A stretch of 64,000 bases of DNA from NCBI RefSeq assembly GCF_031886125.1, contig NZ_CP119391.1, forward strand, positions 1,736,001-1,800,000, given 5' to 3'. The translations under genes were made by a program, and so were the position numbers. Numbering within the stretch: position 1 is the first letter of the stretch; each line of letters begins with the position of its first letter. Shown in pieces: positions 33,460-52,992 of the stretch. Under the pieces are notes generated by a model. That model did no database searches. It saw only the letters and a list, made by a program, of their open reading frames with translations, and was not told the origin of the DNA. This DNA is from Halomonas piscis (GTDB taxonomy: Bacteria > Pseudomonadota > Gammaproteobacteria > Pseudomonadales > Halomonadaceae).

Positions 33460-34117
33460 AGGTCTTCACCTCTCTCAGTCAGGTAATTAGTGGAACAAGC
33501 CACTTGAACTGCCTCCCTTCGCCATGTGGTGGGCTTTCCCCACCTCGGACTACTACGGAGGCTCCGCCAGCTTGTTGGGCATCGGGGTCGCACTCCCTTA
33601 CCATCCCATACAAGCCTTCCCTCGTTTACATGCTGGACTCAAGCGTATGGAGGAGGTTGCCGATCGCAATCTTTACCCTTGCATGCTGCAAGTTGGTGTA
33701 CCCGGTACGGATTAGCTGCGCACTGTCCATACCTCTGTTGGCAACGACTTGGCTATTCGTTGCCCGCAGCAGAAGTGAGCCGTACCTGTACTCACTGCTG
33801 GGGTACACACCTCCAATAAGCCGTGTAGGAGGTGGCGACACGTTCAGCCCACAGACGCGGATTAATCGGTTCGTGTTCCTCAACCTTTCCATACTTAGCC
33901 TAGAGGTGCATCTTGGCGTAACGGCTTCGCCTCACACCCCGTTTCCCACGGGTTACATCACCCTGCCAGTGCACTGCAGGTCACTGCCGCTTCGGCTCAT
34001 GCCCTCTCACAGCAGAGGGCAGCCCTTCACTAGGAGCATCCTGCTCGTCATGAAGGTATTCCAGTCATGCTCGTGCCCATTCAGCTACTTCCTGCTGCCT
34101 TCAGGGTCGAGGCACAC

Positions 34118-34559
34118 AGTAGGTCACGTCCCAGCTCCAGCAAGCATTGGGGCGTGTCACCCGGTGTCGCTGTGGGTCGCCCTTGGGACGTGGAGCGCGA
34201 GCGCGGCCACGGTGGTGCTGCTCACCATGCTCCCGGAGGATGCGGTAGTAGCTGGACTCTGACGCCACGTAGCGGCCTTCTTCGTCCAGCAGCCGCGGCA
34301 CGATCTGTCCGGGCGGCAGGCTGGCGAACTCAGGACGATGGCAAATCTCCAGCACCTGCTGACGTTCCTCCGGCGATAGGGCATGGCGCGGGACAGGCCT
34401 CACCGCTTTAGGCCGGCGATCCTGATCACCCCGCACCCAGCGGCGATACGTGTTGGTACCGATGCCGAGCTCTGCACACGCGGCTTGCAGGCGGGCTCCT
34501 TCGGCGAGGGCCTCATCGATCAGCTGTATGGCGTCCTGGCGATCTGAAGTGCTGATCAT
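34118..34559 (-). pseudogene. IS3-family transposase orfB, N-terminal piece
   Basis: Begins MISTSDRQDAIQLIDEAL with its ATG overlapping the orfA stop by 4 bp. It contains the HTH_21-like region (EGRYVASESSYYRILREHG) and ends NACWSWDVTY, the first catalytic Asp, where group II intron 2 interrupts it. Confidence 0.87.
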
Positions 34560-35047
34560 TCGTCCTCGTCCCCCCAGATCGCTCGGGCCTTTTTTCGCAA
34601 TGTCAGTAGTGCAGCGGTTTCCGCCAGCGCGGCCTCCTTGCGGCGGAGCTCGCGCTTGAGTGCCTTGTTCTCCTGGCGCTCCGCCTTGCGTGCCTCACTC
34701 TGCTGCTTGGTGGCGGCATCGCTTCGGTCGTTAGCGCCTTCACAGCTCGCACGCCAGCGCTGGACCTGCTCGGGATAGAGGCCACGCTGCCGGCAGTATT
34801 CAGCACGCTCAGCTTCGCTGAGGGCCGCTGTCTCCAGAACGGCGTGGAACTTGTCCTGCGAGCTCCAGCCTTCGGGATCATCGCTCTGGTCAGGTAGCAA
34901 ACGGCCTGCTTGTCGAGCCTTCTTGCGCCAGTTGTACAGTGTCGCAGCGGAGATGCCTTCTTCCTGGGCCACTTCTGCCACCGTGCGGTTGTGCGGTGGG
35001 AGCAGCTTCTTGAGGATGGCTTCCCGGCGCTCGTCGGAGTACTTCAT
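34556..35047 (-). CDS. IS3-family transposase orfA
   Basis: 163 residues from ATG 35047, which has GAGG 6 bp upstream (35068 is an alternative). A helix-turn-helix (VAEVAQEEGISAATLYNWRKKA) is followed by a leucine-zipper-like charged helix (KAERQENKALKRELRRKEAAL). OrfA normally acts with OrfB, made by frameshift or coupling; here the stop and orfB start overlap (ATGA). Confidence 0.86.
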   Translation of the reverse strand: MKYSDERREAILKKLLPPHNRTVAEVAQEEGISAATLYNWRKKARQAGRLLPDQSDDPEGWSSQDKFHAVLETAALSEAERAEYCRQRGLYPEQVQRWRASCEGANDRSDAATKQQSEARKAERQENKALKRELRRKEAALAETAALLTLRKKARAIWGDEDE

Positions 35048-35102
35048 CGGAACCTCATCACGCCCCATATGGTTCAGAGTCTAACAGCCGCAGAAACTCC
35101 AA

Positions 35103-36434
35103 CTAGCGTGACAGTGGGGGACCCAGATGAAGGGTGATCCGCCGGGCATGCAGCTTCAGTGTGGCGGCGACCTTAAGCACCTGCTCGCGCATCCGACTCA
35201 GGCTCCAGCCTTGCCGAGTCTGCCGCTCCAGCAGGCAACGCAGACCATGCAGGACCTGGTAAGCATAGAGGCTGAGTAGCAGGCTCACCTCGTTACGCGC
35301 CATCACGTCCTGAACCGTGGAGGCGCCACGATCCGTCGACGAGAGGTGTACGTCGAGCGCTGATTTCACCTCGCCCATGTGCGCTTCGGCGCTACCGCGC
35401 TTGCGGTACAGTGCCAGGACCTTCTCCGGCGGCCAGTCGAACTTGTTGAGGTTGGTGACCAGGAAGAAGGCATGCAACAGCAGGTCATCGGGTCGCTCTT
35501 GCACGACCAGTACCACGCGCCGTGGTTCAGGCCAGGTGCCGGCCTGGTACTCCAGGTCATGACACCATTCCCGTGGCTGCTCGGGCGGCCGACCTCGGGG
35601 CCGCTTCAGGTACGGCGCCGCCAGTGTCTGCAGCCCCGTGTGACTGCGCAGCCGGCCCAGGTACTCGATGCCGCGATCTTCCAACGCCTCCAGCGTGTCG
35701 TTGTCGGTGAACCCGGCGTCGATACGCACCCGAACCTGGGCGCCGGTGCTTTCGTTGAGCCGCTTCACCAGGTGCGGGATCCAGGTATCGGCGTTCTCGG
35801 CCGGGCCGGCGTTGCCTTCGCGTAGTAGGCCGCCCACCATGTCACCGGTTTCGGCCAGCGAGGCGACCAGCGGCGAGTAGATGCGGACCCCGTAAAGGCC
35901 ATGATAGGCCGAGCCACCTTGGTGACCGTGGACCTCGATCGGCAGGCCGTCGATGTCGAGGGTCAACTGCTTGGGTCGCTCGCCGTTCTTCAGCGAGGTC
36001 AGGCGCCAGACTACCAGTCGCAGCAGGCCTTCATGCACGGCATCGATGTTGTCGTTGCGTCCAAGGCAAGTCAGCAGCCGCGACAGCGTGGCTTGAGACG
36101 GCCGGTCCTGGGCCAGTGGCGTCATTCCACGCGCATCGCTGCAGGCCAGCTGCCAGAGGGGATCACGCCGCAACGTGTCGGTATCGCTGAGGTCGATCCA
36201 GCCCATCGCGCGCTGCAGCACCAGGGTTCGCAGCTGGCTGGCCAGCGAGTGGCGGATGCGTAGCGGGTGGCGTTGATCGACCAGATTGTCTTCGAGCGCC
36301 TCGATCACACCGCTGTTGTCGAGGGCTTCACGCAGCAGCAGAGCGCCGCTGTCACTGGTGGTGCGGTGGCCGCTCAGCTCGACACGGACGGAGCCGTTGC
36401 ACGAGGGCGTCCAGGTAGATAGGCTTTCACCCAT
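35103..36434 (-). pseudogene. IS1380-family transposase, 3' end cut off by the IS3 element
   Basis: About 443 residues. Features are GHRTTSDSGALLLREALDNSG, the DDE region LTLDIDGLPIEVHGHQGGS and FTDNDTLEALEDRGIEYLG, and KRGSAEAHMGEVKSALD. Homologues run some 20 residues further; here the frame ends LGPPLSR and a TAG at 35103-35105 that lies exactly at the IS3 terminus, so the stop is made at the junction. The start at 36434 (MGESLSTW) or 36473 is uncertain. Hairpin CCGGCCT/AGGCCGG at 36516-36538 lies near the 5' terminus of the element. Confidence 0.82.
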
Positions 36435-36568
36435 AGCGGATGGCTCTCTTGGTTCAGGTTCTTGGCGGAACACATTGAATTTTCAAGAGAATACCATCCG
36501 CTATCTTCGTTTTCAGGCCGGCCTCATGAATAGGCCGGGTTAAAGGGACCATCTTATTGCATCGATTT

Positions 36569-38101
36569 TTAATAACTCGGAAGCAGTGTCCCAGGCATTA
36601 GGCCGTTCAGGATACGCTTGTGCAAAAGATCAGTAGCCGCGTCGATATCCGGAGCGAAGAAGCGATCCTGATCGTAGTGGGTGACGCGCTCGCGCAGCGC
36701 CCTACGTGCCTGTTCCAGCCTCGGCGAAGTACTCAGGCCGGGGCGCATATCGAGGCCCTGGCAGGCGGCCAGCCATTCGATGGCCACGATGCCGCGCACG
36801 TTGTCTGCCATTTCCCACAGGCGCTTTCCCGCAGCCGGCGCCATGGAGACATGGTCTTCCTGGTTGGCCGAGGTTGGCAGGCTATCAACGCTGTGAGGAT
36901 GAGACAGCGCCTTGTTCTCGCTAGTCAGCGTCGCAGCGGTAACCTGAGCGATCATGAAGCCGGAGTTGACGCCGCCTTTTTCTACCAGGAACGGCGGCAG
37001 CTGGGACATGTGCTTGTCCATCATCAAGGAAATTCGCCGCTCCGACAGCGCACCGATCTCGGCAATAGCCAGTGCCAGGTTGTCGGCGGCCATAGCCACC
37101 GGCTCAGCATGGAAGTTGCCACCGGAGATGATGTCACCCCCCTCGGCAAATACCAGCGGGTTGTCCGACATCGCGTTGGCTTCCACTTCCAGCACCTCAG
37201 AAACCTGGCGCAGCTGGGTCAAAACCGCGCCCATTACCTGAGGCTGACAGCGAAGCGAGTAAGGGTCCTGCACCCGATCGCAGTCGATATGCGAGATACT
37301 GAAGTCGCTGCTCTCACCGAGCAGGTGGCGATAGGCAGCAGCAGCATCGATCTGTCCTTGCTGGCCACGAGCTTCATGGATGCGCGGGTCGAAGGGCACG
37401 CGAGAGCCCAGAGTGGCCTCGACGGTCAGTGAACCGCTCACCGTGGCGGCGCTGAACAGGTCTTCGGCATCGAACAGCCCTTTGAGGGCGTAGACGGTAG
37501 ACACCTGTGTGCCGTTGAGTAGTGCCAGGCCTTCCTTGGGGGCGAGCTGCATAGGCTCAAGCCCTGCAACTTCCAGCGCCTTGGTAGCGGGAAGCCACTT
37601 GCCCTGATGACGCGCCTCACCTACACCCAGCAGCAGTGCGCTCATATGCGCCAGCGGTGCCAGATCGCCGGAAGCACCTGCTGAGCCTTTGAGCGGAATA
37701 CGCGGATACACCTCGGCGTTGATTAACGCGATCAGAGCATCCAGCACCTCGCGGCGAATGCCCGAGAAGCCTCGTGCCAGGGCGTTGACCTTGAGCACCA
37801 TGATCAGCCGCACCAGGCTATCGTCTATGGGAGAACCCACCCCGGTGGAATGGGATAGCACCAGCGAACGCTGCAGATCTTCCAGCTCGTCGTCGGCAAT
37901 GCGGGTTTGGGCCAACAGACCGAAACCGGTGTTGATGCCGTAGACCGTACGGCCTTCTTCCACAACCTGATTAACGCAGTCAACGCTGCGCTGAATGGCT
38001 GCATTGGCGCTGTCCGGCAGGCTAACCTGGACTGGCGCTTCGAACACCTGGCGCAGATGCGCCAGGGTCGTCTTGCCTGGGGAGATAGTTAAGGTTGTCA
38101 T
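36569..38101 (-). CDS. hutH: Histidine ammonia-lyase
   Basis: 510 residues. Converts L-histidine to urocanate and ammonia, the first step of the hut pathway. The MIO cofactor triad Ala-Ser-Gly is present in [16 protein letters not shown] (about residues 143-145), and other signatures are [15 protein letters not shown] and [12 protein letters not shown]. It is the last gene of the long minus-strand run that starts with hutI; the IS1380-family element begins about 100 bp after its stop. Confidence 0.97.
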
Positions 38102-38114: not shown

Positions 38115-39428
38115 TTACTCAGGTGTCGTGATGGGGTAACAAAGATTATTCTTGGTTCTTGCTTTTTCGCTGACAGCGAGACGAATACTTAAAGCAATTC
38201 CCTCTGCAGCCTGTTCGATCTCTTCCATTGACAGGAAGGTTGGAGCAATACGAAGGTGGCTATCTTCTGGGTCGTTCCCATAGGGAAAAGCCGCGCCAGC
38301 TGGGGTCATTGTAACGCCAGCTTTCTCGGCGAGTTCGACAGCACGACGAGCGCATCCCTTGGGAGTGTGTAAACTAATAAAATAACCGCCTTTAGGGCGA
38401 GTCCAGTTTGCCACTGTTGGATCGGTGAGCCAACGATCGAAAGCAGCGTGCACTGCTTCAAATTTAGGGTCGATGATCTGACGATGGGCGTCCATGAGAG
38501 CGTGCAATGCCTGCTCATCGGGGAGCAGGGCCATATGGCGAAGTTGATTGATTCGATCTGGAACGATTGAACGTTTTCCGATTTTCTCGAGAAACCACTG
38601 CAGGTTATCTGTGGAACTGGCGAAAGCAGCGATGCCTCCGCCCGGAAAGGTAACTTTGGACGTCGAGGCAAAAACCAGCGCCCGATTGGGATGCCCCGCG
38701 CTTTCACATGCGTCGAGGATGTTGGCGATTGTAATGCGTTTTTCGGTGAGGTGGTGGACAGCGTAGGCATTGTCCCAGAATAGGCGGAAATCAGGCGCTG
38801 CAGTGGTCATGGAGGCAAGACGTTTAATCACCGAGTCTGAATAAATTGTGCCCGTAGGATTACTGTATTTGGGCACACACCACATACCTTTGATGGAGGA
38901 GTCTTCTGCTACCAATTCCTCTACTTGATCCATATCGGGACCATCAGCATCGAGTGATACTGGGCACATCTCGATGCCATATTCCTCAGTCATATTGAAG
39001 TGGTAGTCATAGCCGGGTACCGGGCAGAGAAAGCGTATTTTTTCTTCCTGGCTCCAAGGTAACAAACTGTCAGAGTTTCCTCTGAGAAGGCTGAACACTA
39101 GATAGTCGTGCATCAGTGCAAGACTGGAATTGCCCTCGACCAAAGTGTTCTCCGGTGGAGCGCCGACCAGTGCCGACATTAGCTCACGAGCTTCAGGCAA
39201 ACCACGCTCACCGCCGTAGTTGCGGCAGTCGGCGCCATCGCTTGCCATGTAGTTACCACTACCGGGCAAATTTAATAGCTGCTCGGCTAATGCTAGCTGC
39301 TCTGGTGCTGGCTTGCCGCGGGCCATGTTAAATTGGATACCCATAGCCTTAAATTTGTTATATTCTTCGTTTATCTTGCGATGGACCTTGTCTAATTCAA
39401 AATTATTTAATTGTTGTAATGTGGTCAT
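38115..39428 (-). CDS. Aspartate aminotransferase-like PLP enzyme in the hut run
   Basis: 437 residues of the fold type I, AspT-like aminotransferase group (PF12897-like by appearance). Visible markers are [20 protein letters not shown] at the start, [20 protein letters not shown], the [17 protein letters not shown] block, the cofactor Asp in [13 protein letters not shown], and [16 protein letters not shown] with the Schiff-base Lys. The N-terminal part is charged and helical. It lies 13 bp upstream of hutH. A role in histidine/imidazolepyruvate or glutamate transamination is plausible but inferred. GAGGTAGGAT lies before the ATG. The base composition is more AT-rich than hutH. Confidence 0.85.
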
Positions 39429-39485
39429 ATCCTACCTCGCATGCATAGGTCGCATCAAAGTACAACCGAATATATCAATGTTTTT

Positions 39486-40829
39486 TTAAAATATTAAGTG
39501 AGTCGCAATTGCCACTAAGGGGATGGCGATAATAGTTCGAATCAAGAAAATGACAACCAGGTCAAGGATAGATAGTGGGATGTCTGACTCGAGTATAGCA
39601 TTAGCGTTTTCTGTAAAGAAGATAATTTGAACTGTTGACAGAGTGCATACAAAAAAGATGCTCATTGGAGCGGCATCGGTTCCAGAAATAATGATGACTG
39701 GCAGCGCAACTTCGGCAATGGAAATCAAGACTGTTGGCGCGATTTTATCCGCATTGGGAAGCTGAAGCATATCCAGAGGATATTGAAAACCAGCGCCAAG
39801 ATATTCAAAAATTGGTGTATAAGTAGCCAAAATAAGTGATAGCGTTGCAATAGCAATAACGTAGGCGACTATCTTCTGTGTAAAAGCAATTGCATCCCAG
39901 AAGGCTTTTTTGAAAACCTCAGGGCCCGAAGCAGCAGCACGTCTTGACGCTGCTTGACAGGCACGCACAAAAATATTTCCTTTCGCTAGATTATCCGTGT
40001 CACTTTTTATATATTCCTGACTATCGATATAACTATCACTTTTCCTGGATAGCGGAGGGATTCGGATCATTATAGCGGCAAGTAAAAAAGTTATAACGAA
40101 TGACGTGATGATCATATGCGGGAGATAGTTAAGAATTCCACCAATCGATACCAGTAATGCAAAAAAACCAATACTTACCACACTGAAGTTTGTTGCAATG
40201 CTGGCAGCTTCCCTCTGATTATATTTTCCTTCTCTATAAAACTGATTCGTGACAAAAACGCCGACAGCGGGCGAGGCGACAAATGAAGTAACCGAATCCA
40301 CTGCTGCCCTGCCAGGAACACGATAAAATCTTCTCATCATTGGCTCCATCAATGTGCCAATAAATTCGGGAAAACCAAATGCCATCAAAAAAACCACCAA
40401 GAATCCCGCTATGGAAACTGTTAATAACACGCTACCACCGAGCGTGAGCGCTAACCCTCCCACATCCTCGTGGAGCAGCCAGTCGGGCCCAACTTCAAAT
40501 ATAATAAGTATCGAAAATATGGCTGATAATATGAAAAGAAGTCCAATAATATTCCCGTCTTTTTTATGATAGTTATTGACTCGCCTATTACTGGTAAATC
40601 TAGAGGCTATCCATGTAGTGCAGAGTAGAACAACCACCCCAAGGGTAATATACTGCAGATTTCCACCGAGAATATCTTTGACGTAATCAATAAGTATTAC
40701 CAAAGGTATTTTGGTTTCGCCTTCCTGCACTGAAAAAGGGATAAAGAAAATGCCGACTCCGATAAGGCTGCCAAAGATTGCCTTCAACGCAGCAGAGTTT
40801 GGAGTGTTAGTCACTTCCGTCTTGTTCAT
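39486..40829 (-). CDS. YjiH-family (nucleoside-recognition/Gate domain) membrane carrier 1
   Basis: 447 residues with about ten hydrophobic helices; FGSLIGVGIFFIPFSV opens the membrane part. It shares the pattern P-x-M-R-x-x-x-R-x-PGR-x-A-(IV)-D with a second paralogue at 49212. The family is uncharacterised, but members sit in amino-acid catabolic loci. Perfect AAAGGAG precedes the ATG. The DNA is strikingly AT-rich with many Ile/Asn/Lys codons, unlike its hut neighbours, suggesting separate acquisition. It is likely a transporter for histidine, urocanate or a related imidazole acid, judged from context only. Confidence 0.8.
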   Translation of the reverse strand: MNKTEVTNTPNSAALKAIFGSLIGVGIFFIPFSVQEGETKIPLVILIDYVKDILGGNLQYITLGVVVLLCTTWIASRFTSNRRVNNYHKKDGNIIGLLFILSAIFSILIIFEVGPDWLLHEDVGGLALTLGGSVLLTVSIAGFLVVFLMAFGFPEFIGTLMEPMMRRFYRVPGRAAVDSVTSFVASPAVGVFVTNQFYREGKYNQREAASIATNFSVVSIGFFALLVSIGGILNYLPHMIITSFVITFLLAAIMIRIPPLSRKSDSYIDSQEYIKSDTDNLAKGNIFVRACQAASRRAAASGPEVFKKAFWDAIAFTQKIVAYVIAIATLSLILATYTPIFEYLGAGFQYPLDMLQLPNADKIAPTVLISIAEVALPVIIISGTDAAPMSIFFVCTLSTVQIIFFTENANAILESDIPLSILDLVVIFLIRTIIAIPLVAIATHLIF

Positions 40830-40890
40830 TGTTTTCTCCTTTAGTATTTATATTGAAAGCTCGGCTACAGAGAAAATTGGCCGGTTTTGG

Positions 40891-40920
40891 TGACAGCAGA
40901 GGTGATAAAACATGCTGTCA
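40891..40920. repeat. Inverted repeat between etfA and yjiH-like gene 1
   Basis: Perfect 8-bp arms TGACAGCA/TGCTGTCA around a 14-nt AT-rich loop, in the 145-bp gap downstream of etfA. It could be an mRNA-processing or protein-binding hairpin. There is no T tract on the minus strand. Confidence 0.5.
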
Positions 40921-40974
40921 TTTGGTGGTAACACCCACAACTACTGGGAGAGTCTATAGGCAGGTGCTGATTAT

Positions 40975-41901
40975 TTAGAGCTTGCTTTCCAGTTCCGGCA
41001 CAGCCTCAAACAGATCAGCAACCAAACCGTAATCGGCTATCTGGAAGATGGGTGCGTCGTCATCTTTGTTGATCGCCACAATCACCTTGGCGTCTTTCAT
41101 TCCCGCCAGGTGCTGAATGGCACCGGAAATGCCCACCGCGACATACAGATCGGGGGCAACGATCTTGCCGGTTTGCCCTACCTGCATGTCGTTGGGCACA
41201 AAGCCGGAGTCCACCGCGGCTCGGGAAGCGCCAATCGCGGCACCTAGCTTGTCGGCGATGCCGTTAAGCAGCTTGAAGTTGTCGGCACTTCCCATACCGC
41301 GACCGCCGGAAACGACCGCTCGCGCGGCACCCAACTCGGGACGATCGCTCTCAGCCAAGGACTCCTTGACGAAAGCCGATATGCGATTCTCGATGCTCTG
41401 TTCGACTGCCTCGATACTTGCGTTGCCACCTGCGGCCACCGGGTCAAAGCCGGTAGCACGCACCGTGATAACCTTTAGGGCATCGCTGCTCTGCACGGTG
41501 GCGATGGCGTTACCTGCATAGATCGGTCGCCTGAAGGTATCGGCGGATTCCACGGCAATGATATCAGATATCTGCGCTACGTCTTTCAAAGCGGCAACCC
41601 GAGGCAGCGCATTTTTGCCATTCGTCGAAGCCGCCGCCAATACGTGGCTATAGTCATCGGCCAGCATGGCCAGCAGTTCGCTTAGCGGCTCGGCCAGCTG
41701 GTGGGCAAAAACGTTACTATCGGCCACGCGCACCTTGGTCACACCGTCGAGTTTGGCGGCCGCCTCCGCCACGGCGTCAACGTTGTCGCCGGCTACCAGC
41801 AGATCAATATTGCCGCCGATCGCCTGGGCGGCAGCAACGACATGGGCAGTCACACTGTCCAGCTCACCGTCCTGATGCTCTGCCAAAACCAGAATACTCA
41901 T
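40975..41901 (-). CDS. etfA: Electron transfer flavoprotein alpha subunit
   Basis: 308 residues. The C-terminal FAD domain is intact: [37 protein letters not shown] and [20 protein letters not shown]. It accepts electrons from acyl-CoA dehydrogenases. Its ATG overlaps the etfB stop by 4 bp. In this locus it is placed to re-oxidise the adjacent dehydrogenase. No ETF:quinone oxidoreductase is in the window. Confidence 0.95.
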
Positions 41902-42650
41902 GAAATCACCTTGGCTTCGTTCTGGAGTTTGTCCACAAGCTCATCAACTGAGCCCACCTTTATGCCACCTTCACGTTCGGCCGGTGGTTCAACCTTGATC
42001 AGAGCCAACTTGCTGGCCACGTCGAGGCCCAGCTCTTCCGGGGTTTTGACGTCCAGCGGTTTCTTCTTGGCTTTCATGACATCCGGCAGCTTGGCATAGC
42101 GCGGCTCATTCAAACGCAGATCGGCGGTCACCACCGCGGGCAAAACCAGCTCAAGCGTCTGCAGGCCGCCGTCGATTTCGCGGGTCACCTGCAGCTTGCC
42201 GTCTTCCACGGTAATCTCGGACGCAAAGGTGCCCTGAGGGCGTCCGGTCAGCGCCGCCAACATCTGCCCCGTCTGGTTGTTATCGGTATCGATGGCCTGC
42301 TTCCCAAGAATGATCAGCTCCGGCTGCTCTTCCTCAACCAGCTTGGCCAGCGCCTTGGCAGCGCCCAATGATTCAACGCGCTCATCGGTTTGTACATGGA
42401 TACCCCGATCCGCACCCAGTGCCAATGACGTTCGCAGCTGTTCCTGAGCCGCTTTAGGCCCAACAGTAACGGCGACCACCTCGGTAGCCACCCCCTTCTC
42501 TTTCAGGCGTACCGCCTCTTCCACGGCGATCTCGCAGAAGGGATTCATGGCCATCTTGACGTTGGTTAGGTCAACGTCGGAGTTATCCGGCTTCACGCGA
42601 ATCTTGACGTTGTAGTCAATGACGCGCTTGACAGCGACGAGTACTTTCAT
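41898..42650 (-). CDS. etfB: Electron transfer flavoprotein beta subunit
   Basis: 250 residues, opening [20 protein letters not shown], with the AMP-binding region [11 protein letters not shown] and the recognition-loop motif [20 protein letters not shown]. It pairs with EtfA. It starts 24 bp after the dehydrogenase stop. Confidence 0.96.
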
Positions 42651-42674
42651 GGTTATAGCTCCAAGTCTAGCGAA

Positions 42675-43808
42675 CTAGAAAGTGATGGCACGCCCGATAA
42701 TAAGCTTCTGGATCTCGGAGGTACCTTCGAAAATACGTGTGATTCGGGCATCACGATAATATCGTTCGATAGGGAGGTCGCTGATATAGCCGTAACCGCC
42801 ATGAATTTGTACTGCGTTATCGGTAATTTTCGCTGCAGTTTCGGATGCAAATAGCTTGGCAACAGCAGATTCAACGCTAAATCTTTGGTCTGTATCACGC
42901 GCATCAGCCGCTTTGTAAGTGACCAGTTTTGCTGCTTCCAGCTGAGTATGCATCTCAGCTAACATCCACTGGAGGCCTTGGTGTTTGCATAATGGCTTAC
43001 CACTAACCACACGCTCTTTTGACCACAATATGCTGTCATCGTAAGCCGCCCTAGCAATACCTAAACTCATAGCAGCAATCTCTACGCGACCACGGTCAAG
43101 AACTTCCATAGCAGTTGAAAACCCTGCACCCTCCTTACCTAATAGAGCGCTTTCGGGTACGACGCAATCAAAACTGATTTCGTAGATATGACTACCACAT
43201 AGCCCAAGAGTCTTTTCAGGACTAGCATAGTTAATACCTGAATTATCGCTATCGACCAAGAAAGCGGAAATACCTTTATGACCTGCATCAGGATCTGTCA
43301 TGGCATAAACCACAAGGAAATCAGCGTAAGCACCATTAGTGATATAGTGCTTGGTTCCTGTTAGATGCCAACCTTTTTCAGTACGTGTTGCCTTCGTCCG
43401 CATCTCAGCCGGATTTGAACCAGCTCCAGGTTCAGTAAGGGCAAAAGCCCCGAGTAACTCGCCGGCAGCGCATCTTGGCAAATAATCTTGCCTTTGCTGC
43501 TCGGTGCCGCCTATCAAAATTGAGTCAGTTGACAAAAAATGTGCTGTTAGAGAAGAACAAGTAGCAGCACAGTGGTAGGCAACTTCTTCTACAGCTAGTG
43601 TCATGCCGATACTGCTAATATCAACGCCATCATAGTCGGACGGCAAATTCATTCCCCAAAAACCAAGTTCGCCTAAAGCTTTTAAGCTTTCAGTACAAAA
43701 TTCGCGCGTTTCATCATAATATTTGGCATTATCCTTCAACACCTCGGAAGAAACTTTTTTGGCAATATCTTGAAAGGCGATTTCGTCATCGTTAAATGTG
43801 AAGTCCAT
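42675..43808 (-). CDS. Acyl-CoA dehydrogenase (CaiA/short-chain type) in the hut run
   Basis: 377 residues from ATG 43808, chosen for AAGG at 9 bp spacing; ATG 43814 overlaps the upstream stop. The FAD-binding signature FALTEPGAGSNPAEMRTKAT and the C-terminal QIHGGYGYISDLPIERYYRD are present. The catalytic Glu is at the usual place in ITRIFEGTSEIQ. It removes or adds hydrogens at the alpha-beta positions of an acyl-CoA with ETF as partner, and it lies between a class III CoA-transferase and etfBA, the same set as caiB-caiA-fixAB. I infer a substrate such as imidazolepropionyl-CoA/urocanoyl-CoA from the hut context. It is more AT-rich than hutU. Confidence 0.9.
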   Translation of the reverse strand: MDFTFNDDEIAFQDIAKKVSSEVLKDNAKYYDETREFCTESLKALGELGFWGMNLPSDYDGVDISSIGMTLAVEEVAYHCAATCSSLTAHFLSTDSILIGGTEQQRQDYLPRCAAGELLGAFALTEPGAGSNPAEMRTKATRTEKGWHLTGTKHYITNGAYADFLVVYAMTDPDAGHKGISAFLVDSDNSGINYASPEKTLGLCGSHIYEISFDCVVPESALLGKEGAGFSTAMEVLDRGRVEIAAMSLGIARAAYDDSILWSKERVVSGKPLCKHQGLQWMLAEMHTQLEAAKLVTYKAADARDTDQRFSVESAVAKLFASETAAKITDNAVQIHGGYGYISDLPIERYYRDARITRIFEGTSEIQKLIIGRAITF

Positions 43809-43813
43809 AATCA

Positions 43814-44929
43814 TTAACCTTTTAGCAAGCTGTTGTGTTGTCCAAGTTTTGGTGCGGGCTGGTCATTAGCAACTTTTTTCCCGTTAAAATACACCGGTTG
43901 TGCAGGGGATCGCCATTGGCCCATATCCATCAGCAGCTGTCGGCTGTCGGCATGCTGGGACTGTGATGTTTGCTTGATGTCCCAGATAGGAGAGGCCGGC
44001 ACACCTGCTGCATCAAGCTTAATGCAGATTCCATCCACTGTATCCTGCTCCGTCCATGCTTCGATAATTGCCTTAAGCTCTGCTTGGTTAGCACAGCGCC
44101 GTTCATCGCTTGAGAAGCGCTCATCGCTAATAAGTTCAGACATTTCCATACATTCAGCCAAACGTTTAAAAAGACCGTTTGATATAACAGCGATAATCAC
44201 TTTACCATCGCTTGCTTGGAAGCTATCGAAAGGAGCAGAGAGTGGGTGGCGATTGCCAATTGGCGAAGGAGCCTGGTCATTAGCAACATACTGGGCAAGA
44301 TTGGTGACTTGCATTGAAAATAGGCAATCGAGCATGGATACGTCGAGATAGCAGCCTTTTCGCTCAGGGTCACGCTCACGCTGAAAAAGTGCTGCACAAA
44401 TTGACCAGCTGGAAAACATCCCGGCACAGACATCCCCCATGGATTCGCCAATCCGAGTTGGCGGGCCACCTTCAGGGCCAGTGGCTGCCATGATGCCGGA
44501 TAACGCTTGGGCGATGATGTCATAGGCTGGTTTAGAGGTCATTGGTCCTGTTTGCCCAAAGCCTGAGATAGAACAATAAATCAAGCTTGGGTGACGCTCA
44601 CGAAGCGTTTTTTCATCGATACCAAGGCGTGAAGTGACTCCGGGACGGAAGTTTTCTACTATAACATCAGCATTTTTACACAACGTATCAAAATGAGATT
44701 TATCTTTGGGATCTTTAAGGTTCAGGCATAGACTTTTTTTTCCACGATTGAGCATTGAGAAATAAATGCTCTCATCTTCCATAAAGGGGGCAATATGACG
44801 GCTGTCGTCACCGTGCTCAGCTTCAATCTTAATAACCTCGGCCCCTAGATCGACTAGCATCGAAGTACAATAAGGGCCGGCTAACACGCGCGACAAGTCA
44901 AGAATAGTCACGCCCTGTAATGGCTGCAT
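43814..44929 (-). CDS. Class III (CaiB/BaiF family) CoA-transferase in the hut run
   Basis: 371 residues from ATG 44929, which has GGAGGT six bases upstream. It opens QPLQGVTILDLSRVLAGPYC, and further markers are LGAEVIKIEAEHGDDSRH, NADVIVENFRPGVTSRLGID and GCYLDVSMLDCLFSMQ, the region of the catalytic Asp. Such enzymes move CoA between carboxylic acids, as CaiB does between carnitine and gamma-butyrobetaine. It follows hutU by about 70 bp and precedes the dehydrogenase with overlapping stop and start. The likely job, from context, is to load or unload CoA from a histidine-derived acid. Confidence 0.9.
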   Translation of the reverse strand: MQPLQGVTILDLSRVLAGPYCTSMLVDLGAEVIKIEAEHGDDSRHIAPFMEDESIYFSMLNRGKKSLCLNLKDPKDKSHFDTLCKNADVIVENFRPGVTSRLGIDEKTLRERHPSLIYCSISGFGQTGPMTSKPAYDIIAQALSGIMAATGPEGGPPTRIGESMGDVCAGMFSSWSICAALFQRERDPERKGCYLDVSMLDCLFSMQVTNLAQYVANDQAPSPIGNRHPLSAPFDSFQASDGKVIIAVISNGLFKRLAECMEMSELISDERFSSDERRCANQAELKAIIEAWTEQDTVDGICIKLDAAGVPASPIWDIKQTSQSQHADSRQLLMDMGQWRSPAQPVYFNGKKVANDQPAPKLGQHNSLLKG

Positions 44930-44998
44930 AGCCACCTCCGGCTTTCGCTTATAAACAGGCACTCTGTTGAGTGCCTGTGGAATTTTATTAGGCGCTTT

Positions 44999-46678
44999 TT
45001 ATTTGACCATCGGCAAATCCAAGCCGTTTTCTTTGGCAGATTCAACAGCGATGTCGTAGCCTGCATCGGCGTGACGCATGACGCCGGTCCCCGGGTCGTT
45101 GCGTAGTACGCGACCAAGGCGAGCATGGGCGTCGTCGGTGCCGTCGCAGACGATCACCACTCCGGCGTGCTGGGAGTAGCCCATACCTACGCCCCCACCG
45201 TGGTGTAGCGACACCCAGGTAGCTCCGCCGGCGGTATTGAGTAGGGCGTTGAGCAGCGGCCAGTCGGAAACGGCATCCGTCCCGTCCCGCATCGACTCGG
45301 TCTCACGGTTGGGGCTGGCTACCGAGCCGGAGTCTAGGTGGTCGCGACCGATGACAACGGGCGCCTTGAGCTCGCCGTTTTTGACCATCTCATTGAAGGC
45401 TTGGCCGAGACGCGCGCGGTCCTTGAGGCCGACCCAGCAGATGCGTGCCGGCAGGCCCTGGAAGGAGATACGCTCCTTGGCCATGTCGAGCCAGTTATGC
45501 AGGTGCGGATCGTCGGGAATCAGCTCCTTGACCTTCTGATCGGTCTTGTAGATGTCCTCCGGGTCGCCGGAGAGCGCTGCCCAGCGGAAGGGCCCAACGC
45601 CCTGACAGAACAGCGGACGGATATAGGCCGGCACGAAGCCCGGGAAGTCGAAGGCGTTCTTGACACCTTCTTCCTGGGCCATCTGGCGGATATTGTTGCC
45701 GTAGTCGAAAGTGGGAATCCCCATCTTCTGGAAGTCGAGCATGGCCTGGACGTGGACAGCCATAGACTGCTTGGCAGCCTTGACGACGGCTTTCGGCTCC
45801 TGCTTGCCGCGAGCCATATAGTCATCCCAGGTCCAGCCGGAGGGCAGGTAGCCGTGCAGCGGATCGTGGGCGCTAGTTTGATCGGTTACCATGCCCGGGC
45901 GCACCCCGCGCTTGACCAGCTCCGGTAGCACATCGGCCGCGTTGGCACACAGCCCGATGGATACTGCCTTGCCTTCCTGAGTGTGCTTTTCAATACGCTC
46001 CAGAGCGTCATCAAGATTCTCGGCCTGCTCGTCCAGATAGCGGGTACGCAGACGGAAATCGATACTTGACTGCCGGCACTCGATATTCAACGAGCAGGCA
46101 CCGGCCATACTGGCTGCCAACGGCTGAGCACCGCCCATGCCGCCAAGGCCGGCGGTGAGAATCCAGCGGCCCTTGAGATCACCCTCATAGTGCTGACGCC
46201 CCGCCTCGACGAAGGTCTCGTAGGTGCCCTGGACGATGCCCTGAGAGGCGATGTAGATCCACGAGCCCGCAGTCATCTGGCCGTACATCATCAGGCCCTT
46301 GCGATCCAGCTCGTTGAAATGCTCCCAGTTGGCCCAGGCCGGCACCAGGTTGGAGTTGGCGATCAGCACCCGCGGGGCATCTTTATGGGTTTCGAATACG
46401 CCTACCGGCTTGCCGGACTGAATCAACAGGGTCTGATGGTCCTCCAGGCGCTTGAGAGTCTCGATAATCTTGTCGTAGCACTCCCAGTCCCGGGCGGCGC
46501 GACCGATACCGCCGTAGACCACCAGATCCTCGGGGCGCTCGGCCACGTCCGGGTGCAGGTTGTTCATCAGCATGCGCATGGGCGCTTCGGTCAGCCAGCT
46601 CTTGCAGCTAAGCTCGGGGCCAGTAGGTGAAGCAATCTTGCGGCTAGGGTCGTGACGCTTCTGGTCTTGGTTGCTCAT
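44999..46678 (-). CDS. hutU: Urocanate hydratase (urocanase)
   Basis: 559 residues. Converts urocanate to imidazolonepropionate with tightly bound NAD. Typical stretches are [40 protein letters not shown] and [23 protein letters not shown] 46678 follows GAGGAAAT; a start at 46702 is possible. It is downstream of hutG in the minus-strand run and is followed by the CoA-transferase gene. Confidence 0.97.
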
Positions 46679-46716
46679 ATTTTCATTTCCTCGTGTTGTC
46701 ATTAGCTGTTATGCAC

Positions 46717-47661
46717 TCAGCCGTTCAGTGTCAACAGATGAACCAGCCGCGCTGCCAGCTTGGCGGTACGATTGTCGATGTCGTAATCGGGGTTGAGCTC
46801 GGCCAAATCGGCCAGCCGCAGCTTGCCGCTGTCGCGGATTGTTTCGATCAGGGGTTCAAACAAGACAAGCGACACGCCGCGAGCCGCGGGCGCGCTGACG
46901 CCGGGCGCTTCGCAGGCCGGCAGGACATCAAGATCAACGGTCAGATAAAGGTGGTCGCAGGAAGCGATGAAGCGTTCAACATCCTGTCTCAGCTCTTCGA
47001 TGGCTGTAGGCGAGAAATCACGATCTTCGCGAATCAGCACCTGGAGCTCAGCGGCGCGCTCAAACAGCGCCCGGGTATTGCTGGCTCGGCTGACGCCCAG
47101 GCAGGCGTAATGAAATGACCAGCCGAGCTCCTCGCACTGCTCGGCAATTTGCGCAAAGGGCGTACCGGAAGAGCGCACGTGCTGCGGATCGCGCAGGTCG
47201 AAATGGGCATCCAGATTGATAATACCGACCCTGGGCGACTTGTTGCCCTGGTTTTCCAGGTGACGCGCCAGCCCCAGCCAGCTGCCAAAGGCAATCTCGT
47301 GGCCGCCGCCCAGCACCACCGGCAGGTGACCGGCATCAAGCAGCGGAGCGAGGCGCTCACCAAGATGTTGCTGAGCCTGCTCCAGGGCATCGCCTTCACA
47401 GATCACGTCGCCGACGTCATAGGCCGGCCCCTGACGATGCCAGGCCTGCGAAGCCAGCGCGCGACGAATCGCGACAGGGCCCTTGGCCGCCCCGACGCGG
47501 CCCTGATTTCGCGCGACGCCGGAATCGCTGGCAAAGCCGAGCAGGGCGCAGCCTGCTGCTGCGTTTTCGCTCAGCGGTCGGACGCGCTGATGCCAACGCT
47601 CACTGTTGAACTCGGGGTCGGTGCGGCCTTGCCAGATTGTCATATCGATCTCAGCGCTCAT
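46717..47661 (-). CDS. hutG: Formimidoylglutamase
   Basis: 314 residues of the arginase/agmatinase fold. Manganese-binding motifs are visible: [26 protein letters not shown] and [19 protein letters not shown]. It splits formimidoylglutamate to glutamate and formamide. The start [15 protein letters not shown] overlaps the hutI end by 11 bp and has GAGGGA upstream. Confidence 0.95.
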
Positions 47662-48880
47662 TGGACAGTCCCTCGGTCAGCTCCCCGCGATAGAGACGCT
47701 GAGCCAGCCGCCCGGGCTGGACGGCGTAGGCCAGTTCGGCCGGCGTTTCGATGTGCCAGCGGCACAGGTCAGCCGGCTGTCCGGGGGCAACGCGGCCCAG
47801 CTCATTGAGTCCCAGCGCCTGAGCGCCGTGCGCCGTCATTCCGGCCAGCGCTTCGCCCGGTGTCATGCGAAATAGCGTGCATGCCAGATTGAGCATCAAC
47901 GTGGCTTGAAAGAGCGGCGAGGTGCCGGGGTTGGCATCGGTGGCGACGGCCATCGGCACGCCGGCTTCGCGTAGGGCCTCAATAGGCGGCTGCTGCGTTT
48001 CACGTAGCGTATGGAAAGCACCGGGCAGAATGACAGCAAGAGTGCCGGCTTCACGCATTGCCTCAATGCCGGCTTCGTCGAGATATTCGATGTGATCCGC
48101 AGACAGCGCGCCGTGGCGTGCGGCAGCAGCGCTACCGCCCAGGTTGGATAGCTGCTCCGCGTGGGCCTTGATCGGCAGGCCATAGGCATTAGCGGCCTTG
48201 AAGACGCGTTCGCACTGAGAGACCGAGAATGCGATTTTCTCGCAGAATACGTCCACCGCATCGGCCAGGCCCTCGGCGGCAGCTCTTGGGATCATCTCGT
48301 TGCAGACCAGGTCGATGTAGTCGTCGCTGTCGTCCTTGAACTCCGGCGGCAGAGCGTGAGCGCCGAGCAGGGTGGTGACGACGCGTATCGGGCGCAATTC
48401 GCCCAGTCGCCGCGCCGCGCGCAGCATCTTCATCTCGTGCTCGACATCCAGCCCGTAGCCCGACTTGATCTCTATCGTGGTGACGCCATCGGCGATCAGC
48501 GCATCCAGGCGCGGCAGGGCGCTTGCAACCAGGTCGTCCTCGCTTGCCTGGCGGGTAGCGTTGACGGTGCTGAGAATGCCGCCACCGCGGCGTGCGACCT
48601 CTTCATAACTCACGCCTTCCAGTCGCGCCTCGAACTCTTCGGCACGATTGCCGCCGAAGACCAGGTGGGTGTGGCAGTCGATCAACCCGGGCGTAATGAC
48701 GCCGCCTGAGCCCATGTCTTCGCCGCTATCAAGCAAGGCGGCATCGGTATCGGCCATGGGCAGCACATCGACAAAGATGTCGCCCTCAACAATCACAGCC
48801 TGGAGGCCTTCAAGGGTCTGATCGCCATCAAACACGGTGACATCTCGCCAAACGCGGCGGCTTTTATCACTGCTAGCCAT
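47651..48880 (-). CDS. hutI: Imidazolonepropionase
   Basis: 409 residues of the amidohydrolase fold that opens imidazolonepropionate to formimidoylglutamate. Metal-binding [50 protein letters not shown] and [12 protein letters not shown] are all present. AGGAGAT precedes the ATG. It is the first gene of the hut minus-strand run, with a HutC-type palindrome 41-50 bp upstream of its start. Confidence 0.97.
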
Positions 48881-48920: not shown

Positions 48921-48930
48921 TGTATATACA
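48921..48930. promoter_or_regulatory. Candidate HutC operator 1
   Basis: Perfect palindrome TGTATATACA, the core known for HutC binding in enteric bacteria and pseudomonads, 41 bp upstream of the hutI start. Confidence 0.8.
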
Positions 48931-49134
48931 ATACAAACTAGCTGACTTGCGTGGTGCATGCCAATACTGGAACGTTGTTTTTAATAGTGGAAGAAGGTCA
49001 GGCCATCCGAAATAATAATATAAGTTGTTGAATACAATATATTATTTTTGAAATAAAGAAATGTAGAGAAAAACAAAAATAGACTAAAGTCTAGTTTTGA
49101 AGGGCGCGCCAGAGCCAGAAGCAGTGTTACTTTG

Positions 49135-49144
49135 TGTATATACA
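49135..49144. promoter_or_regulatory. Candidate HutC operator 2
   Basis: A second TGTATATACA, 68 bp upstream of the yjiH-like carrier start, in the context TTTG...AAA. It suggests the carrier is co-regulated with hutI. Confidence 0.8.
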
Positions 49145-49211
49145 AATGAAGAATGAAGCCTGCCTACGCCAGCTATATTCGATTTCTTACCTACCACTGC
49201 GGAGCCAGTCC

Positions 49212-50531
49212 ATGTCGCCATCTGACCCCTCAAAGCCACAGCAGTCCTCGCGGGCTACCGTTGTCAAGTTACTGCTGCCCAGCCTGCTGGGCATTTTCAT
49301 ATTCTTCGTGCCAATCACGCTCAACGGGCATACCACCATCGCGCTGGATCATATGGTCACAGGCGCGCGGTCTCTAATGGGCAAGGGTAGCGGCCTGTAT
49401 GCCATGGCAATGATCATCGCCGGCGGGCTTTACCCGTTGTTAACTGGCACCTGGCGCGAAAACCTGACCAATAGCGTGTTCACCGGTCTTAAGCTGATCG
49501 GTATTCCGGTGGCCGGAATAGCGCTGACAGGCTGGGGGCCGGACTTTCTGCATACGCCGGACATGCTGCCGTTTCTGTTTGACAAGCTGGTCATACCGGT
49601 AGGGCTGATCGTCCCGATTGGCGCCATCTTTCTCGCACTGCTGGTCAGCTTCGGCCTGCTTGAGCTGATCGGCGTTCTGGTGCAGCCGGTAATGCGACCG
49701 ATCTGGCGCACCCCGGGGCGCAGTGCCATCGATGCAGTAGCCTCCTTTGTCGGCAGCTACTCTATTGGCCTGCTGATCACCAATCGGGTCTACATCGCCG
49801 GACACTACTCGGCACGCGAAGCGGCCATCATCGCTACCGGCTTCTCGACAGTATCGGCGACCTTCATGATTATTGTCGCCAAAACCCTCGACCTGATGAG
49901 CGTGTGGAACACTTATTTCTGGCTGACCCTGCTCATCACCTTCGTGGTCACCGCGATCACGGTGCGTTTGCCGCCGCTGGCAACGATGGACGACACAAGC
50001 GAAGGCGGCGAGCCGGTGGCCGAACCCGGGCGACGTTTCGTGACTGCCTGGCGGACCGGACTTGATGTGGCTGCCAAGGCGCCTTCGCTAGCGGCAAGCG
50101 TGGCGCTGAACTTCAAGGAGGGCCTGCTGATGGCCATCAGCATTCTGCCGTCGATCATGTCGGTAGGGCTTGCCGGTCTGCTGGTGGCCAAGTACACGCC
50201 GCTCTTCGACTGGGTCGGCTGGCTGTTCTATCCTTTTGTCGCGATCTGGGGGCTGGAGGAGGCACGTCAGCTGGCTCAGGCTTCAGCAGCCGGTCTTGCC
50301 GAAATGTTTTTGCCTGCTCTGCTGATGGACGACGCTGGCTTTGTGGCACGCTTTGCCGCCGGTGTCGTCTCGGTATCGGCGGTGCTGTTCTTCTCGGCGT
50401 CGATTCCCTGCATTCTGTCGACTCGCATTCCGCTCAGCGTGGGCCGCATCGTCATCGTCTGGTTCATCAGGGTGGCGCTCAGCCTGCTGCTAGCCGTGCC
50501 GACAGCCATGATAGTGAATAACATTGGCTAG
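49212..50531 (+). CDS. YjiH-family membrane carrier 2, divergent from hutI
   Basis: 439 residues with about eleven helices (LLPSLLGIFIFFVPITL; VGLIVPIGAIFLALLVSFGL). It is a paralogue of the carrier at 39486: both have the PGR-x-A-(IV)-D motif followed by SFV and a REAA-x-IAT segment. ATG 49212 has GGAG 7 bp upstream; the open frame from 49134 crosses the HutC site and is unlikely. Operator placement implies induction by urocanate. The TAG stop lies at an IS5 insertion point, and the original CTAG target would have given the same stop, so the gene is intact. The substrate is probably histidine or urocanate, by context only. Confidence 0.83.
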   Translation: MSPSDPSKPQQSSRATVVKLLLPSLLGIFIFFVPITLNGHTTIALDHMVTGARSLMGKGSGLYAMAMIIAGGLYPLLTGTWRENLTNSVFTGLKLIGIPVAGIALTGWGPDFLHTPDMLPFLFDKLVIPVGLIVPIGAIFLALLVSFGLLELIGVLVQPVMRPIWRTPGRSAIDAVASFVGSYSIGLLITNRVYIAGHYSAREAAIIATGFSTVSATFMIIVAKTLDLMSVWNTYFWLTLLITFVVTAITVRLPPLATMDDTSEGGEPVAEPGRRFVTAWRTGLDVAAKAPSLAASVALNFKEGLLMAISILPSIMSVGLAGLLVAKYTPLFDWVGWLFYPFVAIWGLEEARQLAQASAAGLAEMFLPALLMDDAGFVARFAAGVVSVSAVLFFSASIPCILSTRIPLSVGRIVIVWFIRVALSLLLAVPTAMIVNNIG

Positions 50532-51386
50532 GGTCTGTTGACGTTTCATGGCAGGGGTATTGGCAGGATAGGGGCAAGCTCACAGAATAAAGGTTCCTAA
50601 GCCAACAAACTGCAAGCCTGCCATGCCCCGACAAATGCTCACGGATGAACACTGGCCGAAGCTGAAATCTATCCTGCTTCAACAAGGTATTTATGACAAG
50701 ACCGATCTGCGTACCACGGTGGAAGGCATCCTTTATCGGATGCGAACCGGCTGCCCGTGGCGGGACCTACCGGAGGCGTTTGGCCCCTGGAACACGGTCT
50801 ACAAGCGCTTCAACGCCTGGTCAGCGAGTGGAAAGCTGATGAGGATTTTCATCTCTCTGGTGGAAGATCCTGATGTCGAGTGGCTATTTATTGATGGTTC
50901 CTACGTCAAGGCTCACCAAGATAGCACTGGGGCTGCCACGGAAGATGCAGAAGCCATTGGCAAAAGTCGTGCAGGCAATACCAGCAAGATCCACTTGGCC
51001 GTGGATGCTTATGGGTTGCCGATCGCCTTCAGAATAACCGGGGGTGAAGTGCACGACAGCACGGAAGCCCAGGCATTGATTGACGGTTTGCCGGCAGGTG
51101 ACGCGCTGGTGGCTGACAAAGGCTATGACAGTGAACGTATCCGTGAGCAGGTCGAAGCCAAAGGAATGGCTGCCGTCATTCCACGCAGGCGTAACTCGAA
51201 AAAAGGAAATGCCAATCTGGACAGAGGGTTATATCGCTACCGGCATCTGGTTGAGAATGCCTTTGCTCGATTGAAACCGTATCGCGCCATTGCGACGCGC
51301 TACGATAAGCTCAAACGAAATTACGAAAGCATGGTGGCCTTGGCATGCGGCTTTTTATGGCTACCAATGTGAAACGTCAACAGGCC
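50531..51386 (+). mobile_element. IS5-type (IS427-like) element, copy 2
   Basis: 856 bp, with inverted repeats GGGTCTGTTGACGTTTCA and GGGCCTGTTGACGTTTCA (other strand), flanked by CTA. It is in the same orientation as copy 1 at 32024. It lies against the stop codon of the yjiH-like gene and is separated by only CTA from the next element. Confidence 0.93.
50623..51372 (+). CDS. IS5-family transposase, copy 2
   Basis: 249 residues with an intact DDE triad (DGSYVKAHQD, VADKGYDS, ENAFARLK). It differs from copy 1 at 14 positions by my count, for example A27T, L75I and K200R-type changes, so the copies are not a very recent duplication. Confidence 0.94.
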   Translation: MPRQMLTDEHWPKLKSILLQQGIYDKTDLRTTVEGILYRMRTGCPWRDLPEAFGPWNTVYKRFNAWSASGKLMRIFISLVEDPDVEWLFIDGSYVKAHQDSTGAATEDAEAIGKSRAGNTSKIHLAVDAYGLPIAFRITGGEVHDSTEAQALIDGLPAGDALVADKGYDSERIREQVEAKGMAAVIPRRRNSKKGNANLDRGLYRYRHLVENAFARLKPYRAIATRYDKLKRNYESMVALACGFLWLPM

Positions 51387-52281: not shown

Positions 52282-52992
52282 TCAGGAAGTATGCAGCGAA
52301 GAGCGAAGCTTGTAACGGCCACCGGGATGCGTCAGGCGTGCATAGCTAATCAGCTGCTCTCCTGACCAAGTGCGTCGTATCAGCTGCAAGCAAGGTTGTG
52401 GTGAATCAATGTCCAGCAGGGCAGCTGTTTCTTTATCCACCAGCACCGCTTCGACTACGTGCTCCACGTCGGTAATCGGACAGGCTGCTACCAGCACTTC
52501 ATTGGGGGTATGCTGGTGAAAATTGGTTTCCAGGTAGCGAGGAGCGTGGCGCGGGTTTACGTAGCGCTCCTCAAGCTGAATGGGCGTTCCGTTTTCATAA
52601 TGGAGAATCAGGGTGTGAAATACTTGGGCACCCAGCCGTACTCCTAAACGCATGGACACTTCATCATCGGCACTTTTTGCTTCAACAAGCAGCACGTCGC
52701 AGCTATATTCGTGGCTGCGGTTACGCACTTCGTCGGCGATATTATGCACTTCGACCAGCGAAGATTCGGCCTTATGGTCAGTCACAAAAGTGCCGACTCC
52801 TGCCTGACGCACCAGGTAGCCTTGCTGGACCAAATCATGAATTGCCTTGTTAGCGGTCATGCGGCTGACGCCGAAATCACGTGCCAATTGCTCTTCCGGA
52901 GGAATTTGGTGTTCTGCTGCCCAGTTACCGCTCTGGATTTTCTCCAGCAGGTGCTGTTGAATCTGGAGATAAAGAGGGATCGTTTTGCCCAT
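52282..52992 (-). CDS. hutC: Histidine utilisation repressor HutC (GntR family)
   Basis: 236 residues. The N-terminal winged helix (IPLYLQIQQHLLEKIQSGNW; DFGVSRMTANKAIHDLVQQG) is followed by a UTRA ligand domain (about 90-232) ending YKLRSSLHTS. HutC represses hut genes and is released by urocanate. It is separated from the rest of the locus by the two IS5-family elements. I saw no TGTATATACA site in front of it. Confidence 0.94.
   Translation of the reverse strand: MGKTIPLYLQIQQHLLEKIQSGNWAAEHQIPPEEQLARDFGVSRMTANKAIHDLVQQGYLVRQAGVGTFVTDHKAESSLVEVHNIADEVRNRSHEYSCDVLLVEAKSADDEVSMRLGVRLGAQVFHTLILHYENGTPIQLEERYVNPRHAPRYLETNFHQHTPNEVLVAACPITDVEHVVEAVLVDKETAALLDIDSPQPCLQLIRRTWSGEQLISYARLTHPGGRYKLRSSLHTS

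Follow-up and report, generated by a model that had tools for sequence, protein, structure and literature searches.

A hut-linked CoA-transferase and acyl-CoA dehydrogenase pair in Halomonas piscis: a candidate imidazolepropionate branch of histidine catabolism

What might genes for a coenzyme A (CoA) transferase, an acyl-CoA dehydrogenase and an electron-transfer flavoprotein (ETF) be doing in the middle of a histidine-utilisation (hut) operon? The question is raised by a 64,000-nucleotide stretch of the Halomonas piscis genome (contig NZ_CP119391.1, positions 1,736,001 to 1,800,000; hereafter the window, whose numbering is used throughout), in which hutI, hutG, hutU, a caiB-like transferase gene (caiB), an acyl-CoA dehydrogenase gene (acad), etfB, etfA, a carrier gene, an aminotransferase gene and hutH follow one another on the minus strand, with gaps that are short or overlapping. 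A first-pass annotation had described this single-strand run, and every gene it named was confirmed, except that hutH (36569-38101) falls outside the span of 38115-48880 that it quoted. It had also suggested that the embedded genes convert imidazolepropionate to urocanate. This suggestion is supported by linkage of the pair to hut genes or hutC in 38 to 47 of 56 related loci and by a shared operator in 23 of 24, as set out below, and we consider it likely that caiB-acad-etfBA forms an oxidative branch of the hut pathway that delivers urocanate from imidazolepropionate and recycles CoA.

In the scheme that we propose, imidazolepropionate would be imported and the transferase would charge it with the CoA of urocanoyl-CoA, so that imidazolepropionyl-CoA forms and urocanate is set free. 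The dehydrogenase would then turn imidazolepropionyl-CoA back into urocanoyl-CoA, passing the electrons to the ETF encoded in the operon, and ETF:quinone oxidoreductase, whose gene lies elsewhere in the genome, would hand them on to the quinone pool. HutU, HutI and HutG would convert the released urocanate to glutamate, and HutC, released by urocanate, would control the whole operon. Removal of the alpha proton by an acyl-CoA dehydrogenase needs a CoA thioester, an unactivated carboxylate being unsuitable, and if a family-III transferase hands the CoA of the product to the next substrate molecule, the cycle can run with no ATP spent, as it does in the carnitine system. The genes of the run include no acyl-CoA ligase, thioesterase or hydratase, which fits the expectation for a CoA-recycling loop. 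In the 3.23-Mb, single-contig genome, caiB is the only family-III CoA-transferase gene (E 0.001), there are three acyl-CoA dehydrogenase and three EtfA genes, those of the operon among them, and the one gene for ETF:quinone oxidoreductase lies outside the operon, next to another etfA. Gene content and order, enzyme classes, the canonical type of the ETF, the HutC operator and the conserved linkage are all read directly from the sequence; from them we infer which acid is the substrate, which way the reaction runs and that the CoA loop is closed. A CoA donor other than urocanoyl-CoA, for example succinyl-CoA, is possible.

Lack of co-occurrence with hut genes in other genomes was one of the results that the first-pass annotation had named as refuting its proposal, and the opposite was found. 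Loci with relatives of the operon's dehydrogenase were split at 46% identity to it into 56 near and 74 far loci, the near ones comprising 10 from Halomonadaceae, nine plus nine from Pseudomonadaceae, 12 of the 30 Brevibacterium-family matches, nine from plasmids, L171 and six further (the labels Halomonadaceae, Pseudomonas and Brevibacterium family were assigned from named relatives among other evidence). The transferase gene directly adjoins acad in 55 of the 56 near loci and in none of the 74 far loci. A hut gene or hutC lies within 12 kb in 38 near loci, as against none of the far ones, in a comparison where near loci are not independent of one another, flank lengths vary and some far loci are short contigs. 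Thirty of the 38 have hutU; eight have hutC alone, namely L006 and L191, together with L007, L109, L110, L188, L197 and L198, where hutC was called by tblastn only. The total rises to 47 of 56 with hutU pieces at contig ends (six loci: L008, L111, L112, L119, L185 and L189, the pieces in L008 and L189 being 39-40 residues long) and whole hutU genes beyond the 12-kb limit in the same stretch (L155, L159 and L164). Moreover, in a tree of 102 dehydrogenases (57 of the clade in question and 45 of the 74 far rows), all hut-linked lineages fall within this one clade of 57, with an SH-aLRT support of 100; 48 of its members, the operon itself included, are hut-linked. Within the operon's own subclade (Halomonadaceae, Pseudomonadaceae and Providencia) the linkage extends to 34 of 34 rows.

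The layouts of these loci vary. Halomonadaceae loci read hutI-hutG-hutU-caiB-acad-etfB-etfA-carrier, those of Pseudomonas hutC-hutU-caiB-acad-permease, and those of Providencia hutU-caiB-acad-permease-etfB-etfA-ETF:quinone oxidoreductase, with hutC; in most loci of all three groups hutU immediately precedes caiB. Two Paracoccus plasmids carry hutI-hutH-hutG-caiB-acad-hutU followed by an ATP-binding cassette (ABC) transporter, Pseudorhodobacter has hutI-hutH-caiB-acad-hutU, and Thioclava is also near the Paracoccus layout. In two Sinorhizobium loci caiB-acad and an ABC transporter are accompanied by a divergent hutC, and in the Brevibacterium family caiB-acad-permease is divergent from, and near, hutU-hutI-hutH. 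Five Brevibacterium-family loci (L155, L159, L160, L164 and L168) also contain a distant second caiB-like/acad-like pair (34-35% and 29% identity), which in four of them sits between hutU and the module; the L168 stretch ends before any hutU.

The module also appears to share the regulation of the hut genes. Experiments have established TGTA-N2-TACA as the consensus of the HutC operator (PMC12977541). A perfect match, the putative operator TGTATATACA at 48921-48930, precedes the operon with 40 bases between it and the hutI start codon, placing the operon in the HutC regulon as far as sequence can. A second putative operator TGTATATACA, equally perfect, lies at 49135-49144, near the start of a divergent carrier gene. 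These are the only two perfect sites in the 64 kb, and none of 100 shuffled sequences had two (mean 0.00). Among subclade loci with a full 400 upstream bases, the operon included, 23 of 24 have a HutC operator before the first gene, the exception being L183. Of the subclade's other ten loci, eight (L111-L114, L119, L123, L182 and L185) offered just 0-8 upstream bases, and no site was found in the 280-282 upstream bases of L008 and L189. In five loci (L006, L007, L109, L110 and L188) the operator stands directly before caiB itself, the site starting 48-109 bases before the matched caiB start. None of the 74 distant dehydrogenases has an operator, and the background amounts to nine further sites in 1,041,969 bases of the same loci, some of them near other hut genes and hutC.

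The proteins themselves fall into the expected classes. All hut products exceed their curated cut-offs: imidazolonepropionase HutI, from the operon's first gene (47651-48880, minus strand; TIGR01224, 467.9 bits, cut-off 298.15); formimidoylglutamase HutG (46717-47661, minus; TIGR01227, 325.3 bits, cut-off 229.15); urocanate hydratase HutU, presumably the enzyme that receives what the module makes (44999-46702, minus; TIGR01228, 985.6 bits, cut-off 375); histidine ammonia-lyase HutH, the end gene of the run (minus; TIGR01225, 716.8 bits, cut-off 539.15); and the histidine-utilisation repressor HutC (52282-52992, minus; TIGR02018, 288 bits, cut-off 220), which was absent from the first-pass annotation, as were the two operators. 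The caiB product (43814-44929, minus), presumably a urocanoyl-CoA:imidazolepropionate CoA-transferase, belongs to family III (PF02515, 385 bits, gathering score 23.3). It retains Asp177 (numbered from GTG 44962), as do 56 of 56 aligned sequences; by comparison with formyl-CoA transferase, we take this residue to be catalytic. Its start is most likely the ATG at 44929, behind GGAGG, rather than the GTG at 44962, from which the reading frame is open.

The presumed imidazolepropionyl-CoA dehydrogenase (42675-43808, minus; start probably ATG 43808, matching orthologue starts) has the N-terminal, middle and C-terminal domains of its family (PF02771, PF02770 and PF00441). Numbered from ATG 43814, the catalytic base Glu363 is present within EG(T/S) in every row that extends far enough, 56 of 57, L171 being the one that stops short. 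The clade also has residues of its own that the 74 other dehydrogenases lack, most notably Glu245, found in 57 of 57 clade dehydrogenases and in none of the 74, which have Gly (72) or Ser (2). A structure predicted from 15 sequences (mean pLDDT 84.5, pTM 0.86) places Glu245 within a long helix, 231-267, which by the numbering of medium-chain acyl-CoA dehydrogenase we assume to line the acyl pocket. Since a carboxylate there could hold an imidazole ring, Glu245 may do so for the substrate, although we offer this as a guess.

Several named identities were tried and rejected. Relative to the carnitine system, scores were below cut-off for CaiA (201.4 against 540 bits), CaiB (110.6 against 413), FixA (70.6 against 219) and FixB (110.1 against 549). 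The same is true of acryloyl-CoA reductase (NF042972, 407.2 against 640) and CoA:oxalate CoA-transferase (NF008511, 326.5 against 522). HutU likewise falls below the models for thiourocanate hydratase (670.8 against 930) and its S-methyl-thiourocanate counterpart.

The direction of the reaction is bound up with the type of ETF. The etfB (41898-42650, minus) and etfA (40975-41901, minus) products carry PF01012 and PF00766 and are of the canonical, quinone-linked type: EtfB scores 301 bits to both 1efp and 1efv, compared with 43-107 to other ETF types, and EtfA 357 bits to 1efp, compared with at most 150. This assignment, on which we rejected a bifurcating reductase, is matched by the ETF:quinone oxidoreductase in the genome; the gene for that enzyme lies inside the Providencia cluster and behind etfA in the Halomonadaceae contig L112. 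A second hutU is clearly present in seven genomes (G293, G122, G467, G474, G480, G484 and G485). In four others (G225, G256, G233 and G197) there are near-equal-scoring hutU copies or pieces at contig ends, which suggests that the regular hutU and the caiB-linked one arose by a recent duplication or exchanged sequence by gene conversion, or else that the assembly is redundant. Three Halomonadaceae-type genomes, G287, G393 and G304 (loci L105, L108 and L107), keep hutI-hutG-hutU-caiB-acad-etfBA, and none has an above-cut-off histidase: no match was found in G287 and G393, two draft genomes (about 50 and 70 contigs) rated 100% complete, and the best in G304 reached 421.6 bits, below the cut-off of 539.15. 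Urocanate import could possibly feed the hut genes of such genomes, but this would leave caiB, acad and the etf genes unexplained.

These observations bear on the converse proposal. The first-pass annotation had already raised a possible reduction of urocanate; on this reading the module would act as an electron sink, making imidazolepropionate from urocanate at the level of the CoA esters, much as CaiB/CaiA/FixAB do with crotonobetaine. The top curated dehydrogenase model is indeed that of a reductase, acryloyl-CoA reductase, albeit below cut-off, and the known CaiBA and aryl-acrylate systems run reductively. However, a canonical rather than bifurcating ETF, ETF:quinone oxidoreductase within the cluster in Providencia and L112, a usual partner, hutU, that would compete for urocanate, and three carrier genomes in which histidase is missing or scores too low together favour oxidation and make reduction quite improbable. 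Indeed, the partnership with hutU, its second copy, the missing or low-scoring histidase and the canonical ETF are all explained by a module that feeds urocanate in, and not by one that consumes it. A second rival is that a close relative is oxidised, such as an N-methyl-, thio- or other substituted imidazolepropionate, and not imidazolepropionate itself. It gains some credit from plasmids of Mesorhizobium (L191:12302-17158) and Gemmobacter (L194:3866-8521), where caiB-acad stands beside a Rieske oxygenase, a reductase, a HisC-like aminotransferase and a GlcD-like oxidase, so that a related substrate is possible at those two loci. A his-type ABC transporter and hutC are present at L191 as well. 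Both clusters perhaps serve several histidine-derived imidazole acids, for instance imidazolelactate. Yet in H. piscis HutU scores as a true urocanate hydratase and not as a thiourocanate enzyme, and the remaining operon is the ordinary hut route; we regard a substituted substrate as improbable. Chance capture, by a hut operon, of ordinary CoA enzymes of the fatty-acid or glutarate type might be entertained because both families are large and common and their curated names generic. We rejected it as highly unlikely: linkage of the pair to hut genes or hutC recurs in several lineages and in varied layouts, the dehydrogenases concerned form a single clade, none of the 74 controls shows such linkage, and in five loci the HutC operator stands directly before caiB.

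A number of points nevertheless weigh against oxidation of imidazolepropionate as a hut branch. No hut gene was found within the fetched stretch in nine of the 56 near loci (L010, L156, L162, L163, L167, L168, L171, L190 and L194), although for L010 a hutU lies about 14 kb away in its genome (G489); L171 belongs to the window's own class, being gammaproteobacterial, and falls outside its subclade. The operator is missing in L183, in L171 and in all but one (L196) of the 22 loci from Alphaproteobacteria and Actinomycetota; L171 and the loci of these two groups may be under other sites or other control. The closest curated models, below cut-off though they are, name acryloyl-CoA reductase and CoA:oxalate CoA-transferase. 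Next to caiB-acad, etfAB is missing from most loci of Pseudomonas, Alphaproteobacteria and Actinomycetota (L189 has etfB), which presumably use a housekeeping ETF, and ETF:quinone oxidoreductase was not found in four of 21 carrier genomes (G304 and three actinobacterial ones). We saw no enzyme that would be devoted to the initial loading of CoA. The Rieske oxygenase sets described above count here as well, as does the rarity of the module, which occurs in 11 of 275 genomes of the H. piscis family and, in wider samples, in two of 194 from the order and two of 369 from the class, its own genome counted in each case.

Elsewhere the distribution is patchy. The module is present in nine of 25 genomes of one Pseudomonas genus group (18 of 398 in its family, those nine included), in 30 of 60 genomes of the Brevibacterium oceani family and on nine plasmid records, every one alphaproteobacterial. 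Among the best 120 of 7994 matches, the nearest named relatives of the dehydrogenase are from Salinicola, Halomonas, Vreelandella and Bisbaumannia (78-87% identity), followed by Acinetobacter, Providencia and Pseudomonas (61-64%). The transferase gives a similar picture, but no Salinicola or Acinetobacter names appear among the 120 matches listed. It seems fairly likely, then, that CoA-dependent imidazolepropionate oxidation, under HutC control in many carriers, is scattered over the Gammaproteobacteria, Alphaproteobacteria and Actinomycetota, partly on plasmids and often with its own copies of hutU and hutC, that some hut operons without a histidase serve imidazolepropionate and not histidine, and that Glu245 may hold the ring.

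How does this arrangement compare with known systems? The CoA-recycling cycle is of a type already known for carnitine, aryl acrylates and caffeate, and by their cut-offs the proteins lie outside the carnitine, acryloyl-CoA and oxalate families. Carnitine CaiB-CaiA-FixAB resembles the module in combining a family-III CoA-transferase that recycles CoA between saturated and unsaturated acids with an acyl-CoA dehydrogenase and an ETF pair; it differs in running reductively and possessing CaiC and CaiD, whereas the operon here has a canonical ETF and hut enzymes and misses the Cai/Fix cut-offs. The aryl-acrylate and caffeate reduction systems (FldA/AcdA/EtfAB and CarA/CarCDE) likewise apply a CoA-transferase, an acyl-CoA dehydrogenase and an ETF to a beta-aryl acrylate/propionate pair. 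They are anaerobic and reductive with a bifurcating-type ETF, whereas for the operon's EtfB the match to CarD reaches 106 bits and that to the canonical type 301. AcrC acryloyl-CoA reductase is the nearest curated dehydrogenase model, but has another context and another ETF type. The hut pathway itself is extended here by caiB-acad-etfBA, and three related genomes keep hutI-hutG-hutU with no above-cut-off histidase. Urocanate reductase UrdA acts on the free acid without CoA, in contrast to an acyl-CoA dehydrogenase. The pair of acids is the same, and UrdA works in the direction of reduction, producing imidazolepropionate from urocanate (PMC13320830).

Coote and Hassall are said to have shown in 1973 that pseudomonads grow on imidazolylpropionate. 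We know of no genes given in the growth work of the 1970s and, to our knowledge, none are known for imidazolepropionate breakdown; the open literature searched yielded none either. Nor did the matches listed there, a scope outside which most subscription journals lie, include a description of urocanoyl-CoA, imidazolepropionyl-CoA or a hut-linked CoA-transferase/acyl-CoA dehydrogenase, and passages of PMC13320830, PMC12772324 and PMC12977541 contain none. The first-pass annotation likewise knew of no description of such a branch. The caiB-acad pair would offer a two-gene marker for imidazolepropionate breakdown, making the old growth biochemistry directly testable. The same pair occurs in Providencia species, some of which inhabit guts. 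Imidazole propionate is a microbial product of histidine associated with cardiometabolic and neurodegenerative disease (PMC13320830). If the proposed route is correct, carriers would probably convert this disease-linked metabolite to urocanate and use it as food, and in some genomes the hut genes would serve imidazolepropionate instead of histidine.

Several features of the locus lie outside this argument. The carrier gene behind etfA (39486-40829, minus) encodes a Gate-domain protein (PF07670) and is a candidate uptake system; it comes after etfA in L105-L110 and not in L111 or L112. The name YjiH was the first-pass annotation's own, and no NCBIfam match was above cut-off. Next in the run is a class Ic aspartate aminotransferase gene (38115-39428, minus; NF053594, 594.2 bits, cut-off 435). 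A second Gate-domain carrier gene (49134-50531, plus; PF07670) is divergent from hutI, an arrangement shared by L105 and L107, and its true start is probably downstream of the operator. Sigma-70 promoter and terminator scans gave counts at chance level, as did hairpins overall; one hairpin of 10 pairs (44955-44978) in the hutU-caiB gap may be a place where the RNA is processed or transcription attenuated. The locus is bordered by transposase genes (50623-51372, 34101-35068 and 35103-36473): one of IS4/5 type sits between the second carrier gene and hutC, and an IS1380 lies directly behind hutH with helix-turn-helix transposase pieces adjoining. Further along there are group II intron matches on both strands (27208-29019 and 30984-31070) and a reverse-transcriptase fragment (32848-33459).

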